Shown here piece by piece: positions 36,773-53,400 of a stretch of DNA of 64,000 nt (the stretch's first letter is position 1; each line of letters opens with the position of its first letter). The notes under the pieces are model-generated. The model saw only the letters and a list, made by a program, of their open reading frames with translations. It ran no database searches and was not told the DNA's origin. The translations under genes and the position numbers were made by a program. This DNA is from Utricularia gibba (Eukaryota > Streptophyta > Magnoliopsida > Lamiales > Lentibulariaceae). Where the stretch lies: contig CM007989.1 in assembly GCA_002189035.1 (NCBI GenBank), positions 3,596,001 through 3,660,000 of the forward strand, in the 5' to 3' direction.

Positions 36773-39700
36773 TCAGTATTTGATGCTCCAGAGTGCGGAT
36801 GAATGGGAATCGTCTACTGCGTACCTGAGTTCCGGCGGCATGTCGTTCAGCTTTCCGCACGCCTGGAGACGCGCCCTGAGATATGAGAGGAGCTCGCTGT
36901 GTGCTGATTGCTTCCTTTTGATTACACGATAGTATGCATAGAGTCCAAGCCACATGATCTCCCTCTTCTTGACGTCATATTTGGGACGGGCGTTGGGATC
37001 CCATCGAAAATTATACATCTTCCTCCGAATCAATCTGTTCATGTACCTGGAAACAGGATGCGAGAAGGGAAATGGGCACACTGAAGGGGTAAAAGGTTGC
37101 ATGGGTGTGTATGTGGGTGTTGGTTACCTGAAGGATGTGTCAATGGCCTTCATGTAGAACTGGGGAGTGAACTTGGGCAGGATGGATAAATGGGAGATGT
37201 AGCAAATGAATTTCATAGCGCAGAGAACGAATAGCTGGTAGATATTTAGCCTGACGACGCATCTTGAGTTGATGTTGGAGTCGTAGAATATTGGATGGCA
37301 CTTGGGGCGCAGGAAAGCCTGCAGCTTTCGGGTTATCTGATGGCCTACTCTGCCTTGGCAGCTCACCGTTAGAGTGGAACTCAAATGTGTGCTGAGATAC
37401 CTGCAGTAGGAGACAAGGATCGGGTAGCATTAACAGTGAGTTGTTTTGATGTCAATGCAGGCAGGAAGCATGAGATGAACCTGGTGTAGTCGGCCTGTAT
37501 TTCTAATGTTGCACAGTTGACAAGGAGCCCACTCCAGCGGAGAAAAGAGATGCCGTCTTTGCCAACAAAGAGCCTGTTTGATTGAGAGAAATCTCTGTCT
37601 TCCATGCTGAAGTTTACACCGGACTTCTCCATATTCATGTGGCAGTTGTAATCTCGTACTCCTCTTTCCAACCGCGAAAAGAACATAGAAGCTTGCTTCT
37701 TGGAAGTTGATATGAAAAGGAAGTCGTCAATGAACCTGAGTAGAAGATAATTGGAACCACCTGAAGAAGCTTGTTTCGCGTTGTTGTTCCCTGAAGTTGA
37801 AGCATCGGTTTTTTCCAAGAGATCTTCAACTTCACAAGATTTCTTCATGAACGGGAGAAGCACACTTCTTTCCATATGCTCGTAATAAAACGAACAAAGC
37901 AGAGGAGACAAAACACTTCCTTGAGGTATACCAACACGTTGCAAGAATAAGGTGTTACCAAATAGCACCACATTGCGTGTGATATGCTCTTTCAGGTTGA
38001 AGTTAATTTCTGCCTCGCCCACAGTCCTTCTCGTACCCTTGAAGAGGAGGGAAAGAAATGATAGTTTAACCATCAAGCTTATAACTATGGAACATATACA
38101 GACAAATTTAGTGTCCATGTCTTGTCAAGATCAACTAAGTGACCTCTCACGAGTTACTATCATGCGATCGGCTAGAAATGCATCATTTATCATGAGAAGT
38201 AACAAGTGGTAGCAATACCTTGTTAATGAAAACACCATCCAAGGAATCAGGAGGAGGCAGTAGGGGAAGTTTTGCAGAATCAGTAGTGCTATCTTGATGC
38301 ACTAATATCTGATGTCGACGGACGTTCAAGGACCCATTGGAGCAGACAACCTGTTTAACCTCTTCCAATGTATATTCATTATCTAATATGACATCCCTTA
38401 GTACTGTAAGCAATTTATCATGCTTGATAGAATCAAAGGCTTTTGAGACATCTGAAACAACAATATACACTCCAGGAAATATAGCCAATCCTTCCCTGAG
38501 AGAATACAAGAAGGGTACAAGTTTTTGGTATACACCATTGTAATCAAAAACCGATGAATTGAACTTCAGTGATTCTGTACCAGATAAACCTTTAAGAACC
38601 ACGTGCATATCATGCAGAACTTTGTTAACAGACTTAAAAAAATGATTTCTCACTCGGATATTTCTAAATGCTCGCATGTGCTTTTGACTAGAGCCAAGTC
38701 TATGAGACTGTCTCAGAGGCAGTCTCGACGGTGCTTGTAGGTTTGCCAAGAGTCTGAATCCCATTCTCTTTGGACGAAGCCGGACTCTTGAGAAACCAAA
38801 CATTCTTTTCTCCAATATCTTCTTAGCAGAGCCCTGGCCTAGCTTGCTATAATTCTCATCACTCAAGCATTCAGCTTCGCAACTTAGTTTTTCCCAGACA
38901 GACTTCTGATAATATAGTACCTCTAGTTTTTCATCCTCTGAATCTGTGACATAAAAGTTGGCCTGAAGCAGGGGTGACACCAGATGGGTGAAAAACCAGA
39001 ATATCCAGCGTTCCATCACTGCATGTCTAGCAATATCATTGTTGGAAAGTGCGCCACACACCTTAACATCCTTGTGATAGATGCTTGAAAATAATGGGAA
39101 CTTGGATATTTTTAACCTATGAATACATTCTTTCAGGGTGAACTTCTCATATTTTCTCAGCTTGATAAACCTTGAGATGTTTTTCCTCAGAACTCTCCAG
39201 TTAGAAATCTCTCCAAGCAGAGATGGAGGGATTATCCTCCTGCAAATTGCCCAGATAAACGACACTACTTGCTTCCTCGGGCAACAGAGCTTGTTTAGTT
39301 CACGTGGACCATCAGAAGCTTCAGAAGTTATATCATTCTCCGCTGTCTGGCCAAATGATTCTCCTTCAGAACGTGAGGGCCCTAATCTGCGGGAATGTTT
39401 GTCTTTTGCAGAACTGCTTTCCTAGATCAAAATGTCATGGATCTAAGCACACTCTCCTGTATCACCATCGATAAAATAGCAATAATACTAGCTAACTGAA
39501 AGCAGGTGAGCAAGGAACACACAACGAAAACAGTGAGACACAGAGAACCTTAAACTTAGTGCAACCACTTGATTTTGTATCCTGATGACCAGCCATGCAA
39601 TGTCTATCAAACAGCCTCAGATGCGGGCAATTTCTGGTCTTCCGTATGAGACCTTTGAGAAGCTTAATAAGAGAGTGGTACCTGAATACAGAAGAACAGG

Positions 39701-42064: not shown

Positions 42065-45000
42065 TTAGGTGTTGCTTGGATTCTCGTCTGCTGGAGTAGA
42101 CGCAAGCGGAGTTCCGGCATCGTCGAGCACCGGAGTAGACGAAACATTCGGAGTTCCGGCATCGTCGAGCGCCGGAGTAGAAGAAACATTCGGAGTTCCA
42201 GCATCATCGAGCGCAGGAGTAGACACATTCGGAGTTCCAGCATCGTCGAGCATCGGAGTAGAAGAATAAGAAACACTCGGAGTTCCAACATCCTCTCGCG
42301 CCGGAGTAGAAGAAACATTTGGAGTTCCAGGATCAGTTTGTGTACCGTGGTTCCGATTCCACCCAGGGCGGGAAATAGGCTTTCTGAAATATTTGCGGAG
42401 AAAGCTTTCAGCCCCTTCAGGATACTTCAACCTCAAGTAGCTTTCCAGGCATTTGCGGTATGAAAAGTCTAATCTCACGCCATCCACGGCGACCACAAAG
42501 AAGCACCGGCTGTCTGGGAAATCTGGATGCGTACTTATCTGTAGGTTACCAATATGTGCTGATCGGCATGAGTTACAGACGTCAAAAAAGTGTGATTTCG
42601 TAACGGGGAAGAGAAATGGAAGCATACCATCAAGTAATCCAATCCAGCTCCCAGCTTGTTAGCTTTGTTAGGATGATGGTTCAATACATTCTCAACCATG
42701 TATGTCTGATCATCTGCAGATAAAGGGTCACCATCATTGTACCTGCATGTGGAAATAGAATCCTGAGTTACTAGGAGAAGGAGGAGACGAAAGCATGGGC
42801 CGCATGGTGTTCGTCTATAGGAGCAGATCACAAGCTAGCTTCCTCTGCCTATGAAGATTTGATGAAGATAAATCCCACTATTTGAATGTTGGGTATGAGG
42901 TAGTCATAATGCTCCCTACATATGTCTATGGTGCCTTGCCTGCAGCTGAAGCATGTCAAATGGGTACTCAATACGAGGGTGGTCAGAAAAAGAATTTACC
43001 CAGTAACCTTCAAAATCCTTCTGACGTTCTTCATGATTGATTCAGTCTCGGAAAGAATGTCTTGTTCTTCGGCAGTGAATGAATCCAAACGCTGTCTTGT
43101 TAAAGTGAAAAGGACAGGGGAGTCATTCCCATGAGGAGGTCGCCTGTTCTTCCACTCCCCATCATTAGAAGAGCCACGACCTTCCCTGCCACGGCCCCAT
43201 CCTCGGCCTCGACCACGGCCTCGGCCCCGTCCCCACTGAGGGGGGCCTTTGTCCTTGAAATCATCAGCTTTTGAGGGAGCTGAATCATGATCAATCGAGG
43301 AGCTCTCAGCCTGCCTCCATCCAGAACTCCACCTATTAGAAGGTGACCTCGTATTCTGTCCCCAGTTTTTCGTAGAACCCCAACCAGGTGATGCTTCAGT
43401 GCCGGCACTCTGGTCAGCAGGAGTTTCCTTTGAATCTGGCACACCGGCATCACCTTGAGATTCCACCGGAGTTGTACTCCAGCTACGTTTCTCTCCCCAA
43501 TCAATATCCGAATTCACCTTCTTCCCTCGTGCCAAGTCTGGAGTTTCTTTGCCCCATCCACTGTCATTACCATGCCATGCAGGAGAATCAGATTCTGTTG
43601 CCCAATCGCTTTCATTGGGCTTGCCGTTTTTCTTGTGTAGCAAATTCTTGCCCCAGTTGTTCTCAGACTTCTTACCCCAACTACTTTCCTCAACGTTGGA
43701 TTTTTTGCCCCAAGATCCCTCTTCAGGCTGGTCCCAGTCACTGTTATTCACCTGCTCTGCTTCTAAACTCCAGCTACTTTGTGCAGCCTTATCCCTTTGT
43801 TCGTGTTCGAAGTCATCTTTCTTACCCCAAGTATTCTCATTAGCATTCTTGCCCCAACCACTTTCTTTGGAGTTGCTTTTTTTATCCCAAGTTCTTTCTT
43901 CAGGATTCTTTTTCCAATCAACTTCTTGTGAAACTCTCTTACCCCAAGCATTCTGTACATCATCCCTTGTGTCGATGCCCGTTGTACCAATCTTTTGGGT
44001 CCATCTGGCATCTCCAGCATCCTCAGCAGTACTTTTCGATGCAGAGTCACTATTCGAATTCCATTTTGTATGTTCAGTTTTACAGTTGCTCCAGTTACTT
44101 CCGCCAGATGCAACCTTCTTACCCCAGGAAGACCAGCCATCTTCAGGCTCCAGAACACCCTGTAAAAGAAGTGATTACTCCATGGGTCCAATTAATGTGC
44201 ATACACAATACGAAAAAGACAACTCCTTGCCTCATTGTCGTCAACACCAAGTTCAGGCCCATCTTCAAAGGTGAGTTTCTCAAGACCGGGATCTCTTTCT
44301 GGGGAGAGTTCAAAATCCATTAAAGCGTCTTCTGGGAGATCATCAATTTCAGTTCCAATGCAACTTGTTCCAGTATCCCCATGCTGTGAGCTGCTATTCA
44401 CCATATGAAGGAAATTGTAGACATCAATTTCCTTTTGCGGCCTCAGTTCAGTCTATGAATTCCATAGTCAAAATTAGGTTGCAGCAAACCACAAGAAAAT
44501 GATTAGAATGACAACAAATTATTAGAATACCTTCCGTGTGTCCCAAAGAATCTCAAAATTTGAACCAGTTCCCACCGACACTTCTTTCCCCCAAGCACAT
44601 GAACCGACAATGCTAGACAACTGATCGACATGGCACTTTTCGGCAGCTCTTTCAAAGCATTTTCTAGGCGTCTAGAAAGTATGAAGACAAAATCAGGTTG
44701 ATGAATGAAATGAAATGAAATGCGGAAAATGCACCAGAATAAGCTAGAGTTCATACGAATAATGTTGCATTCATGAATGGCGCATGGACATCAAGTGCTA
44801 GAGACAAGGCTTTAATACCGCCAGCATTGAAACCAATCAAAGTGCCAGCACACGTCATGTTATTTCCTAACAAAAGGAGATGATCTTTGAGCACCCCCTT
44901 GGTCACCATCGTCACAGATGTGTACAAACGCTGGAGACCAAAAAATGTAATTAGTTTTAACAATAACCAGCAACTTTTAAAATTCTGAAGTTCTCTTATT

Positions 45001-48000
45001 GTACAAAAACTGTTATCCTCGGCAAGACAACTAGACAATTTATTGTGCCCTGCAGCATTAGTTAGTTCATCACATGTTGCGTCATCAAAAAGAAAAATGA
45101 GAAAATTTGTATTCGTGAAGGGAAGCAGGCAAAAATAGCAAGAAAGTACTATCCACGAGCAGGTTCATGAGCTTGAGGTATCCCACTAAATTATCAAGCA
45201 ATCCCAGTAATTCACGAATGCTAATATTATACACACATGTTACCTGAACAGCCTGCTCGAATGTACAAGAAATCCCAAGCAATTCTTCAACTTGTTTTAT
45301 CGCGTATGGGATTGACCGCCTTGTATCAATCAAATGGAACACTGGCAAACAAGCATCCAGTACAACCCTCCACGCGTCTCCACTTTTCTTGACAGCTTCT
45401 CTTTCAAGGACAATGTCTAAAGCGATCTCACCCTTTGGGCTCTTAGACGGACTCCTAATCCATGTACCCATGCTTGGAGTTTGCCAAACTATCTCCACTG
45501 TCGAAACCCTAGAATCCCCTGTACCAAGAACATCATTATTAGTTTACATCACTACATATAATAATTCACAAAAGACCTCCATAGCACTCTATTCATCCTT
45601 AATAAAATAGATATTGAATACACAAAAGAGAGAGAGAGGCAAGGGGGCGACAGAGAGACTCCAACGAAAGTAAACAAAGAACAACGACATCTACTTTGCC
45701 AGAATTCACTTTCGGAAAAATCTTAATGGCGACAACATTCCAGGTGAAATAGATTACAAATCAACTTTAAAATACCTTTAATTATTGTCTGTAGCAACAC
45801 TGGGCACACTTTTTCAGCAAGAAGGCGCGAGATATTCTCCAAAGCATCATTACAGATCCCTTGCCAAAGAAACTGGACACATGGAACGGCATATGGCCGG
45901 TTTTTAGAAGATCCGCAGAAGTTACAACTCTCACTGAAACGAAATACAGACCATGAGCGCATAAACACAGATTTCAGCTCTTCAGAAATATATATACACT
46001 AATTGCTAATATTGTGGTAGATCTCAATTTTCTATGATAAAGTACTCCATCTGGATGAATTCGGGTGTATCACTTGATGTTATCCAATTCCAACGACTAC
46101 AACATTGTCAAAGACAAGCATTGCAGAATGTGGCAGCAATATCGTCTTGCGGATGGCTGACAGCATATAGAAGAATTCTGGTACAAGGCAATTGAATCTA
46201 GAGATGGCATAAGCAAACCTCAAACTTAAGTCAATTTTCCTGAACAACTGTCCGAGTTCTTTCTTCTTATGCCACAGATTTTTTGTCTCTTGGCATCTTT
46301 CAAGAATCTTGTGCATATGGATGCTTGATCGTTCGAGCTCCATCTGTAGAATTTTTTCAGATATTATGAAACATTAGCCACATATCTCAGATAAGATACG
46401 CTATAATCTTAATACTGGTGACCTTGCTTAGGTGAATGTGCCCAACTAGACCCCCAGTATCCTTATACGATACTTCAGATCTATATCTGCAGAAAGAAGA
46501 TACAAAAAACCAATCAGCATTAAGTCAACTATATCCACCAAAGTAAATACAACACTGCCATAAGACAGAAATTGAATATATTGAAGTAAAAGCCTGACAG
46601 GAAAATTCACAACCCTATCAAGGGATGCTGGTGCAACATAATTTTGACGTAGAAACATATATTAAAATAGGTTGTAAGAATCTGAGTTTTTCAAACGATC
46701 CTATCAATATAATTCTAACAGAGAATAAAGAAACCCAATGCAATTCTTTGGCCCGAACTCTGGATAAACCACAATATGCAGAAGGAGAGTACTGAAATGT
46801 TAAGAGGCAGATGATGGTACTCTATAAGGAATTCAGTGGCAGCATCTCTCAAACTGACTTTCTTCATGTGATTCTGAACCACTAGTGCAGCATTTTCCTG
46901 GCAATGCTTTCTGCCACAGTCACAATAATTCAAGTACAAGATCACCCTACGGTCGGAGATATCATTTTTGAAGGTGACCCCACAAAGCATTATCTCCTGA
47001 GTTAAGGCGACAAATGTAAATTGATCAGGAAAAGCTATCAAAAGTTAATAAGATATCGAGCATCAAAGTGAGAACTTTTCTAAACGCAAAACTCAAGTAC
47101 TTTCATCATCTTCCAGGAGGAGTTGCTACTAGAGGAAGAATCAAGAACGGCTTTGTATGCAGGATTAGACATTGCGGTTGCTGCTAAGACTCCAACTGGA
47201 TCCCCAGCACAGAATTCACTCGCAACATTGGTACTATTAACTCCATATTCAAATTGAACAATTGAGTTGCTACACATATTTCGCACTGTGCCATCATAGC
47301 ATATCACCACATCTCTAAGAATGGCCATCAGATTCTTGAATAATGTCCCAGGTTCAGTTAAGCCCCTACTTGAACGAACAATGACTTCCCTGCTCGAAAT
47401 GGAATGAACCATCTCCTGATATGGATTCAGTCCTCGAAAGAGTGGTTTACCAACTAAGCCAAACTCTTCAGTCGGATAATCACCAGATGATGGATAGTTC
47501 TTTTGGAATAACGATGACATATTTTTGACCAGCGTCTCAGTATAGAACTTCCCCTTTGGTGATATTTGCAACCCAACGAAGCCAATTTGCTGAATAACTT
47601 TGTTTAGAGCAGATTCACTTTTACAATCTACAAGGAGGCCAACAGCAGAAGTGCTAACTATGAAATCGGTGATTGGACGTTTCAAACTGTTCAAATAATT
47701 ATCTAACTGCACAGCAATTGAGTCACTATATGAATGATATAAACAAGCCAACTCTGGAGAAATTTTTTGAACATTTTCCTGGATGCTCTCCAAAACCTCC
47801 AGCGGCACAAAAAAATCGCTCAAACTGACACTAAAACCTTCTGCATGAAGATTTTCCATCAACAATGGTTGTATGGAATTAAAAAAACCTAAAACTTGAA
47901 CTGGGCCCTTCAAGAAAAAAAGGGAAGTGACTAGGTCATTGACAACTGATGCCATTACATTCCTGTTGACCTCCAAGTTTAAAATCTCACCTTTTGAGAT

Positions 48001-51000
48001 TAAATGCTTCTCTCCAGAGCAACAAAATAAAGGCGGAAAAGTTGCCTGCAAAACTTGCAATGAAGTCCACTGGGGGCCAATTTTCGATTTAACTATGGCA
48101 GGCCCAGAAAGCATGTTGACTAAAAACATGGCCAACTGCTGTACAGCTTCTTTCCTGAAGAAATGCTTGAAAAGAAGAAGTTTGAGTGACAAAAGCGAGT
48201 CAGTTGCCAGCTGCAGATTGAAGTTGCCAGTGTGGGAGCTGAGCAGCTGTTTTTCTACTGAGAAAAGCTCTACCACCTCTGCTCTGGCTTCAAGAGACTG
48301 TGGATAGAACAAATGGATGCAATCGCCATCAAAATCGGCAGCAAGTGGACCACACATAAGGGGTTGATTTTCACAGTATGATTGTCATGCACATACACTC
48401 TCAAGGCTTGGAGAGAGTGCTTGTGTGTAGTTGGAGGCCTATTAATGAACACGATATCACCATCCATTATCCTCCGATGTACAACCTGACCTGGTCTCAG
48501 AAATGTATGCCCCTTAGACCCTTCACGGAGTGAATACATTGAGCCACCATCCTTGTAAGTCAAGCAAAGCTTCTCGTCCACAAGTTTCTGCAAGAAACCT
48601 AGGTTATGCTGGTTTACTCGCTCCACAAATGTTATCTTCTGGGCAATTTCATAAGGCAACCCAATCTCAGACACCCCTTTATAGGGTTCTCCTGTTATAA
48701 CTGAACGGGAAGAGAACCCAGAGCCCTTTCTGATGAATAAAGTTTTCATCTTCTCAAGCCATGCCTTGGTAGACGATTTATTCGTTTCTTTTTTAACTCC
48801 AAACCGAGAATCCACATCACGAGCAGCCTAATGGAAACCCAAAATGTTTTATAACAGTGGAAATATGTATGTTACATATAAAGATAATGGAAAATTGTGA
48901 TGATTAATTAATGCACTTCACATTCTTAATGAACTAAATAAAGACCTAAGATGTAGTAGACGAAAAATTCCAGTACATAAAGACCAAAGAGAAAGTAAGA
49001 GAAATATAGGACTCAAACAATAAAGCATTATCATGAATCACCAAGTTGATAGCACAAGATACTATGTATACGGTATAGCTGAGATCCAAATCAATGATCC
49101 GGATGTTTATAGGCAGTGGAAATGGTTCTCAAAACAGCATTTTTGCATTCAACAGAAAATATTATATTACCTTTCCAGTTCCCCTGTAAAGAAGATATTG
49201 TGAAACTGCAGCTTGTAGATCATTAGCCTCAATCTCTTGAGATTCAAAGTTTGGATTCCCAGACCTTGAATTTTTAATGATTTCAACTTGCCTCAACACC
49301 CTTTTAAGCAAATATACTGAATAATCCTGAGCATGTAGGACATCGTAAAAAATTAGCCAGAATCCTTGAAATATAATATTAGAGAAATATAATAAATTCA
49401 ACTAGCACCTAACCGTGGACATGGTGTGGATTCCATCCGATATATCAGGCACACATAAACAGTTCGGAGGAACTGGTAAAAACTTGAGAATGTATCCATC
49501 TTGAGGATAATAACCCTTTAACGCAAGCTTTCTTTTGGTCTCAAGTGGTAGATTTTTCAGTATTGAGACCACCTGTAAATGTTAACAAAAAATCAGTAAA
49601 TAGTTCAAAAGCATCTGATTGCGAAAAGGATGGATGCATAAGGAATAAAATATTTGATTACGGTGACTTAAGTTGTACAAATCATGTATTGACTTTTCAT
49701 CCTGAAAACCGACAAAGAAAAAAACTTGCTTATCACTGCAAATAGAACTGTAAAAAAGATAATGGTAAGTGAAGCACAGCGTAGACCAAGATTAAAATGT
49801 TCATGACCACTATGATGCAACAACCAAAATAAATTTAAAAATAGAATGATTCCAGAAAAAACCTCAGAAGGAAGTAATGGCCTAGAATAATCATTTCCAT
49901 GACGAAATCCATATTTTTCCAAGAAGTTCCAAAATCCATCTCTAAGTCTTGATCTCGATGGCACTTTTAGCTCCAAGGAGAAAGCTCCATCCAAATTTTT
50001 TGTTTCATTTATAGTCATTTCTGAAGTTTCCTGCCAAATTAAGTAAGTTAAAGAACTTCAGGAATCTATACAGTAAATAAATTGTACAGGTTAGAATACA
50101 AAAAATATACCTCGCAACATGAAGACAGCATTCGTTCCGCAATACCAACAGCCTTAGCCTGAAATAAACATAATATAATATGCAAAAAGGATAAAAAAAA
50201 AGCACGCTAATTCTATGCTTATTGTTCTGTTGCATCAAGGACTTCCGGAAAAATAAGTCTGCCATTGTGTCAAGGCAAGCTCAGTCTAGGATTATTGTCA
50301 AGGACTACTGGAAAAATGCCATATAATAAAAAGCTCATGCAAGACCAAGAAATAACTTATTATATTTTATATGATTACCTCTATCCTCCATGCGGAAATG
50401 ACAGACCCAGAAAATCAAGATGGCACATGGAACGAAATATTCGATGTTTCAGAATTTTATATTAAAATTGACTTTGAAACAAATGGCAGCGAACTTTTAG
50501 GATATGTAGTATATTATTCTTGTGATGATGCTTCTTCAGTGAAAACTTGTCCTAGAAGCATGAAAAACTTTATTGGAAAAAAAAAAGGGCATTGCTAACT
50601 AGGCAGGGGATCACAGAGTACAGCACCTTCCGGTTTTTTAACTTCAAGCACTTCAAGCACAGCAAACTTAACAGCTTCTTGAGCTCAGCAATATGATCAG
50701 GATGATATATCGGAGTTGGTAATTCGATGTATCCAAAATGGCCTATAAAGACAGCATGAGACCAAGAGATAGAAGTTAATTTCAACCTTTTTTAGTTGTT
50801 ATTATCATGCAGAATGCCTATTCTTTTTCTTCCTGGCTTATATTCCGAAAGGTGTAAAGTATGTTACCTTCACATTGACCTGGCTCACTCGTACCACATG
50901 ACTCACATTTCCCGGACTCAAGAGGCAGTCCAAGAAAAGGATTGGAAAGTTGGCTAGCATGTGTGATAGGACAGTCGCTAATCGATGATTTACACTAACA

Positions 51001-51230
51001 AAGAGACAAGGAAGCAATCAAGATTTCTGAAACTAAATTCAAATAACCACAATAAATATGGGGTGCCAGGCACCTTCCTAGCCTTCATGCTAAGTTTAAA
51101 TTGCTTAGAGCTAGAGAAAGAAAATAGAAGAGAAAAACTTGCTTACGATTTCATGAGATTTTGTCAATCCGAATTTTACTCCATTTATTCGAGCCTCAGC
51201 AACCACAGTGGCAGAATTCGGGTTCTCCAT
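42065..51230 (-). CDS. NRPE1: RNA polymerase V largest subunit, with an apparent frameshift before the catalytic motif
   Basis: Pol V makes scaffold RNAs for RNA-directed DNA methylation, and its AGO-hook tail recruits AGO4. The ATG is at 51230 (MENPNSATVVAEARINGVKF) and the stop at 42065. Seen in order: the cysteine cluster and H-GHFGYIELPTPIYHP near 50740, KCLKLKN near 50650, VPSRSRLRDGFWNFLEKYGF near 49920, IRKGSGFSSRSVITGEPYKG near 48700, GQVVHRRIMDGDIVFINRPP near 48450, the metal-binding DFDGD near 48320, SSRGLTEPGTLFKNLMA near 47350, and SKGVLK-HLLLLGNNMTCAGT near 44870. The WG/GW-rich tail lies at 43100-44190, and the DeCL domain (RLDFSYRKCLESYLRLKYPE) near 42450. The upstream frame ends KINPL while the next family residues MCGPLAADFDGD are in another frame; the join is at the four-base G run 48360-48363. 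NRPE1 is chosen over NRPD1 because of the WG tail. Confidence 0.93.
42085..42345. repeat. Tandem coding repeat in the NRPE1 C-terminus
   Basis: About six units of 39-48 bp encode variations of T-P-N-V-S-S-T-P-A-L-D-D-A-G on the minus strand. Units differ by in-frame changes (STPAREDVG, YSSTPMLDDAG, STPVLDDAG). They follow directly after the DeCL domain and end the protein. Confidence 0.85.
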
Positions 51231-52230
51231 TTTACGCAAGGCCTGAATGGAAAAATCAATCACAATGCATCCTGAGATCAGTTTCACTATGCATGGTGAA
51301 GGAAAAATATGCAGAACATTACTAACCACCGGGTACAAATACAATGAATATCTTCAAGCTAATAAGAAACAACATAAAGGGAAGAGTGCACAAAAGGCAA
51401 TATCAACAATGCCACATTCGGGACAGGAAAATGAAAATGATGAACAACTACGACGCAAAAAAAACAAGACAAAACCCGAAACCTCTTTTCAGAAAAAAAA
51501 AAAAAAAAAAAAAAAAGCGAACGACCTCTAGCTTCTGTTTGGAGTAGAAAACTGAGGCGCGAATCAAATGGGAATCGTGATTCCAGCAACTTCACCCCGG
51601 CATGCAGCGACTGGACCTCATCACCAGCGTTCACAAAACTCTCCTTTTTTTATTTCCTTCACAACTGCCTCTCTCTGGGTGCCGAGTACGGTAACCAGAC
51701 CGAGGCTTTTGACTCCACGGGGATTCTGAACCGCCGGCATCGCCTCGCCATTTCGACGAATTGGAGAACTGAGAAGTAATTACTAAATTACCCTCCTCTG
51801 TCTTCGTCTCCTTTGAAGAGGCCCCACCCGCATCTGAGGATAAATGTACCGTTGCCGATTTGCTCTCATTCCCACGTCACGTATGGTGCATTTAGAATGA
51901 TAATTACATTAATTATATTTTCTATTTAAATTTATTTAATAAAACAATAAATAAATAAATTAGCTAAAATTCAACCCATGCGGTTAAGGGAGGCCCAAAA
52001 GATCAAGCGAATGCAGCCCATTGGAATGCTTTTAACATGGCTTTTATTATTATTTTTTGATATATTCAAAATTTAATAAAAAAGTAAAAGTAGGGTGGGG
52101 CCCGCGTACCCGCGGCTTTTGTTCAATTTCGTGGATTGTCAAGATAGCCGTTGCACTTGACTTGGATCGGATCTGCCATTGACGTGTCTCTTACCTTGAG
52201 ATTTATCGCCTTCAAATCCTGGGAGAAGAA
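51231..52230. promoter_or_regulatory. Divergent promoter region between NRPE1 and the WD40 gene
   Basis: The ATGs of two divergent genes are 1.0 kb apart. A TTTTCCATTCAG acceptor-like sequence on the minus strand just upstream of the NRPE1 ATG suggests an intron in its leader. A run of about 24 A bases lies near 51490-51515. The segment 51890-52090 is AT-rich. No defined cis element is claimed. Confidence 0.5.
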
Positions 52231-53400
52231 ATGGCGCTGTGCTCTGTTGACTTGGATTCCCGAGATTGCTCACCAATGTTAACTCCTTTGTTGACGCCGG
52301 CGACCAGCGCCACCTCCAGCGGCCGCACCAGCCACGAATCTGATGAACAAAACCTCCTGAACTTCAAAATCCCCAATCCGCCGCCGTCACGCTCACATTG
52401 CAAGAAATCTCTGGCCATTCTCACCGGACACGCCGGGGCCGTCTCCTGCCTGACGCTCTGCGGCGAATTCGTTATCACCGCTTCGCGTGGCGATGATATC
52501 ATCGTGTGGCAGCACCCGGATCTGAGAGAATTCGCGAAATTCGGTTATGGTGACGGTGCAGTTAAGGCGGTATTCAGCTGCGGGAACAGAGTCTTCACGG
52601 CGCATCAGGATAGTAGAATCAGAGTATGGAGAGTTACAACCGATTCACAAAATGTGTTCAAGCTGGTAACCGCACTTCCCACGGCGAAGGATTATTTAGG
52701 AAAGTTTTTGAATCAGAGGAGCTACATCCAAACCCGGCGCCACCACAAGCGTTTGTGGATCGAGCACTCAGATAGCATTTCGTGCCTTGAAGTTTCAAAT
52801 GGATTGATATACTCTGGCTCTTGGGACAAAACTCTCAAGGTTTGGAGACTCTCTGATTTCAAATGCTTGGAATCCATAAACGCACACAGTGATGCTATAA
52901 ACTGTTTAGCTTCCAGAAATGGGATTGTGTACTCTTCCTCTGCAGATGGAACAATCAAGTCTTGGTGCAGAGACAAGAAAACCAAAACACACCGACTGAA
53001 AGCCATCTTGATGGGGCATAAAGATGTCTCATTGAACTCATTCGTTGTGTCTGATGATGGGAAGTCTGTCTACAGTGGAGGTTCTGATGGATGCGTTATC
53101 GGGTGGAGGGGGAACGATGAATTCGACTCGTTTGTGATGTTCATGGACATGAAAGCACATACAATGTCTGTGTTGTGCATGTGCTTGGTGGGAGATTTCT
53201 TGTGTTGTGGCTCAGCTGATAAGAGCATCAGCGTGTGGAGAATAGAAGGGAATGGCTTGAAGGAGCACATGGTGCTGAGAGGGCACGAGGGGGCCGTGAA
53301 ATGTTTGCAGGGGATGAGAGCAGGGGGAGGATTCATGTTGTACAGTGGGAGCATCGACAAGACAGTGAGGGTCTGGTGGGTTCCCATTGCGACAGCATAG
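52231..53400 (+). CDS. WD40 repeat protein, JINGUBANG-like
   Basis: An intronless 389-codon frame. It encodes a Ser/Thr-rich N-terminus (residues 1-60) and seven WD40 blades. Blade motifs include LTGHAGAVSCLTLCGEFVIT with DIIVWQH, NRVFTAHQDSRIRVWRV, SDSISCLEVSNGLIYSGSWD with TLKVWRL, AHSDAINCLASRNGIVYSSS with TIKSWCR, GHKDVSLNSFVVSDDGKSVY, and AHTMSVLCMCLVGDFLCCGS with SISVWRI. The final blade is GHEGAVKCLQG with YSGSIDKTVRVWWV. The pattern and single exon match plant JINGUBANG-type proteins; in Arabidopsis the founding member restrains pollen germination. A specific role here is inferred only from family. Confidence 0.9.
   Translation: MALCSVDLDSRDCSPMLTPLLTPATSATSSGRTSHESDEQNLLNFKIPNPPPSRSHCKKSLAILTGHAGAVSCLTLCGEFVITASRGDDIIVWQHPDLREFAKFGYGDGAVKAVFSCGNRVFTAHQDSRIRVWRVTTDSQNVFKLVTALPTAKDYLGKFLNQRSYIQTRRHHKRLWIEHSDSISCLEVSNGLIYSGSWDKTLKVWRLSDFKCLESINAHSDAINCLASRNGIVYSSSADGTIKSWCRDKKTKTHRLKAILMGHKDVSLNSFVVSDDGKSVYSGGSDGCVIGWRGNDEFDSFVMFMDMKAHTMSVLCMCLVGDFLCCGSADKSISVWRIEGNGLKEHMVLRGHEGAVKCLQGMRAGGGFMLYSGSIDKTVRVWWVPIATA

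Follow-up and report, generated by a model that had tools for sequence, protein, structure and literature searches.

A one-base frame break ahead of the catalytic motif of Utricularia gibba NRPE1 is probably an assembly consensus error

NRPE1, the largest subunit of RNA polymerase V (Pol V) in plants, is represented among solved structures by the chains of 8hyj, 8hil, and 8him, to which the gene described here is homologous without interruption from the N-terminus across the catalytic region. It also has the WG/GW-rich C-terminal domain of known NRPE1 proteins and a DNA-encoded DFDGD motif, whereas, as assembled, it is one base short just before that motif. Two further systems are close enough to be compared. 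In Utricularia gibba, DCL3, which like NRPE1 is a gene of the RdDM system, has been described as truncated, with a loss of about 600 residues for which transcripts and 5' RACE gave confirmation (PMC8333044); in contrast, the NRPE1 lesion is a single base known from the assembly alone. The published U. gibba genome is an HGAP assembly of PacBio reads (PMC5793159) with a mean per-base coverage of 34X (PMC8333044), and an HGAP/Quiver assembly of another genome was found to retain 205 indels, of which almost every one lay in a G or C homopolymer (PMC4832174). The cases reported below resemble those residual indels in being one-base length errors, mostly in short C or G runs of otherwise intact genes, although the runs in the present assembly are short (3-6 bases).

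The analyzed window (64,000 nucleotides of contig CM007989.1, here C1, positions 3,596,001 to 3,660,000) contains on its minus strand a gene that had been annotated from its sequence as NRPE1, an identity that is borne out by comparison with solved structures. A hand-built gene model with splice sites places 19 exons at 42065-51230, with the ATG at 51230 and the TAA at 42065, complete apart from the frameshift; 17 of the 18 introns are GT-AG and one, intron 16, is apparently GC-AG (donor at 44231, minus strand). The coding sequence as assembled is 5,669 bases long, one below a multiple of three. The best solved relatives of the translation are Pol V chains, matched by the two halves of the gene with E values of 1.2e-191 and 1.9e-142; the largest subunits of Pol II and Pol IV match far less well (for the downstream half, Pol IV comes next at 5e-41). 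Exon 17 (43000-44159) is intact and encodes the WG/GW-rich extension typical of NRPE1, the repeats of which can be read in its translation, and exons 18-19 (42065-42742), also intact in the gene model, contain the final repeats and a conserved C-terminal region, presumably the DeCL-like one. Just downstream lies a telomerase reverse transcriptase gene with Telomerase_RBD and RVT_1 domains (37381-39421, minus strand), and an open frame of 405 codons for a WD40 protein is present at 52183-53400 on the plus strand.

The break is located in exon 8 (47101-48827, 1,727 bases), which also holds the catalytic DFDGD. A run of four C at 48363-48360 on the minus strand (four G on the plus strand, 48360-48363) directly precedes PLMCGPLAADFDGD. 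The frame as assembled reads RVYVHDNHTVKINPLCVVHLLPILMAIASICSIHSLLKPEQRW and then a stop, and the family sequence PLMCGPLAADFDGDCIHLFYPQ begins one frame over at 48363, with its ATG at 48357-48355. Adding one base at CCCC would join the two frames. The initial annotation was accurate in describing a one-base frameshift immediately before DFDGD, a run of four G where five are needed, and a continuation in another frame from 48357. The out-of-frame tail (48270-48360) consists of LCVVHLLPILMAIASICSIHSLLKPEQRW followed by a stop, and the metal-binding (Metal A) motif DFDGD at 48322-48336, 3' of the shift, does not share the reading frame of the start codon. Consequently, no open frame runs from the start through DFDGD in the assembly, which we judge to be a probable consensus error, and the predicted product is a protein of 471 residues that stops before DFDGD and is without an active site, the catalytic consequence that had been anticipated on paper. 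Open codons extend for 440 positions before the break and 1,448 after it, and because both flanks are long and highly significant matches to NRPE1, the break is far beyond chance.

An intron within the break was considered and rejected, as had also been argued from the sequence. In the alignment with solved Pol V, the upstream half corresponds to residues 5-442 of the 8hil chain and the downstream half to residues 440-864 of the same chain families, so the halves are contiguous and no residues are missing between them. It is also conceivable that the gene is functional, its frame being mended by slippage, either of the transcript or of the ribosome (-1, on the CCC codon). Moving back by one base on CCC would indeed restore NPLMC exactly, but the same could be said of every deletion within a run of C; furthermore, the A-site codon would pair poorly after the shift, and the solved Pol V relatives are contiguous proteins that give no hint of a shifted frame. 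To our knowledge there is no precedent for such slippage in plant nuclear genes, and this explanation appears scarcely credible.

A second copy of NRPE1, for which a search had been proposed, was looked for in the sequence between the N stretches of the assembly (100.09 Mb, 516 contigs), and the DNA search found only one copy. A protein search of the same assembly revealed, besides NRPE1, only more distant paralogues. Pfam matches placed the nuclear polymerase largest subunits each at a single locus, together with plastid rpoC1, the Pol II locus being identified by its heptad repeats and the other polymerase loci by resemblance; these single-copy loci suggest that the genome, at about 100 Mb, is nearly complete. 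In principle, the break might be a one-base deletion in an allele that is heterozygous or specific to a line, with the same plant or other plants also having an intact allele; a consensus can retain one allele, and no additional contig that would represent the other state of the run turned up in the DNA search. The same objections apply to such an allele as to a fixed loss (see below), and the background of errors would be sufficient alone, which makes this reading highly improbable.

That background was estimated from other conserved genes. HSP70, HSP90, P450, and CesA were picked as controls without foreknowledge of breaks, and NRPB1, the largest subunit of Pol II, came from the first family search. 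NRPB1 is an essential gene. The only NRPB1 found, which lies on C1 like NRPE1, has two one-base losses (at about 1383030 and 1383570 of C1) with zero gap between the frames, so that a lesion of the same kind occurs twice in an essential single-copy gene on the same contig. One is GAAGTCCCAAGGGTGAA at the join of IMNDEVP and KGELND, where animal chains vary in length, and the other is CTTAGGGTGTC at the join of DYLR and GVTENIML, which is contiguous in solved RPB1. Since NRPB1 is essential, real frameshifts there are not credible, and both losses are taken as consensus errors.

Among the heat shock proteins, two of six cytosolic-type HSP70 genes were found to have one one-base deletion each, reading GC-CCCAAG in the gene on C451 (fitting a change from C5 to C4) and ATC-CCAC in that on C496 (fitting C4 to C3). 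Three deletions were detected in two of five HSP90 genes: GACTCCCCTG on C451 compared with GACTCCCCCTG in an intact paralogue, and, on C255, CTGATCCCGAG compared with CTGATCCCCGAG and ATCCTTTTG compared with ATCCTCTTTG in paralogues, the last of which lies outside any C or G run. Of the HSP90 deletions, one is a change from C5 to C4 relative to an intact paralogue, the same change as in NRPE1. In addition, a CesA gene on C244 carries one one-base deletion, and no clear adjacent-frame pair was seen in the P450 family when its table was checked by eye. All resolved control cases are deletions, and most are in C or G runs, with the one HSP90 exception. A divergent HSP70 gene is present on two contigs (C304:2235400-2238400 and C241:15700-18700), and its two copies are 99.6% identical and share the same one-base deletion; this could reflect either an error that recurred or a true pseudogene, and it was left out of the error count because the defect is possibly real. 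A suspected frame break in an HSP70/BiP-like gene (C1, 2261 kb) was rejected, as tblastn reads it in a single frame.

Independently of these genes, length differences of this kind were also detected between repeated pieces of the plastome contig (C516, 172,489 bases). Two same-orientation stretches, one toward either end at a distance of about 150,029 bases and probably representing the end overlap of a circular molecule, are alike over 4.97 kb except at two sites, where G6 stands against G5 and G5 against G4. In NRPB1, HSP70, and HSP90 together there were 7 deletions in about 22.6 kb, from which 1.75 would be expected per 5.67 kb; with P450 and CesA added, 0.61 errors would be expected in 5.67 kb, the background lengths being approximate and those of P450 and CesA rough. 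With 0.6-1.8 errors expected in a gene this long, one in NRPE1 is unremarkable. When G/C run lengths were counted across the window, length 5 was only slightly depleted, and this census carries no weight in the verdict.

An assembly error, which the initial annotation had itself named as the alternative, thus appears to be the best explanation of the break, and its implication that Pol V has really been lost is unsupported, as one-base deletions, mostly in C or G runs, recur in essential genes. We put at about 92% the probability that the shift is a one-base consensus error, most likely an undercall, in a short C/G run of the PacBio HGAP assembly. The base at the C4 run would then be present in the plant, and its single-copy NRPE1 would be ordinary and intact, encoding a normal Pol V largest subunit. 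Beyond the break, no further stop, indel, or broken splice site was found across the 19 exons (~5.7 kb of coding sequence), and the gene shows none of the additional disabling changes or decay of a real pseudogene.

The opposite reading, a real and very recent loss of function of NRPE1 that is fixed or common, with a stop at residue 471 and Pol V lost, would represent one more step in the erosion of RdDM within a tiny genome, after the truncated DCL3. It agrees with the absence of the base from the assembly and of a second NRPE1, and U. gibba is known for a DCL3 without its helicase half and for low CHH methylation (PMC8333044), so that selection on Pol V may conceivably be relaxed. Against it, both the type and the rate of the lesion match the assembly errors in NRPB1, HSP70, and HSP90, no second disabling change is seen over a coding sequence of about 5.7 kb, methylation in all contexts persists in the TE bodies of U. 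gibba, and NRPE1 is listed as present by the authors of that study (PMC8333044). A real or allelic loss keeps a small probability because RdDM is already altered in this species, and the fixed or common loss is very unlikely. If it were true, an angiosperm with eroded RdDM (truncated DCL3) would very recently have lost Pol V too.

With a consensus error as the preferred reading, the NRPE1 break has no importance as a biological finding, and its value is that of a warning about the assembly. We estimate that in its conserved coding sequence a one-base deletion occurs roughly once per 3-10 kb; at such a rate, a gene should be called lost or truncated on its basis only with support from reads or transcripts, as was provided for DCL3. 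A DCL3-like gene with RNase III domains is located on C213 at about 2760000-2764000, where no helicase-like ORF was recognized by eye among the forward-strand ORFs of 20 kb, which fits the description of a U. gibba DCL3 without its N-terminal half (PMC8333044). In the assembly as a whole, strong RNase III matches occur at four loci, a further match being weak, and Dicer_dimer matches occur at three.
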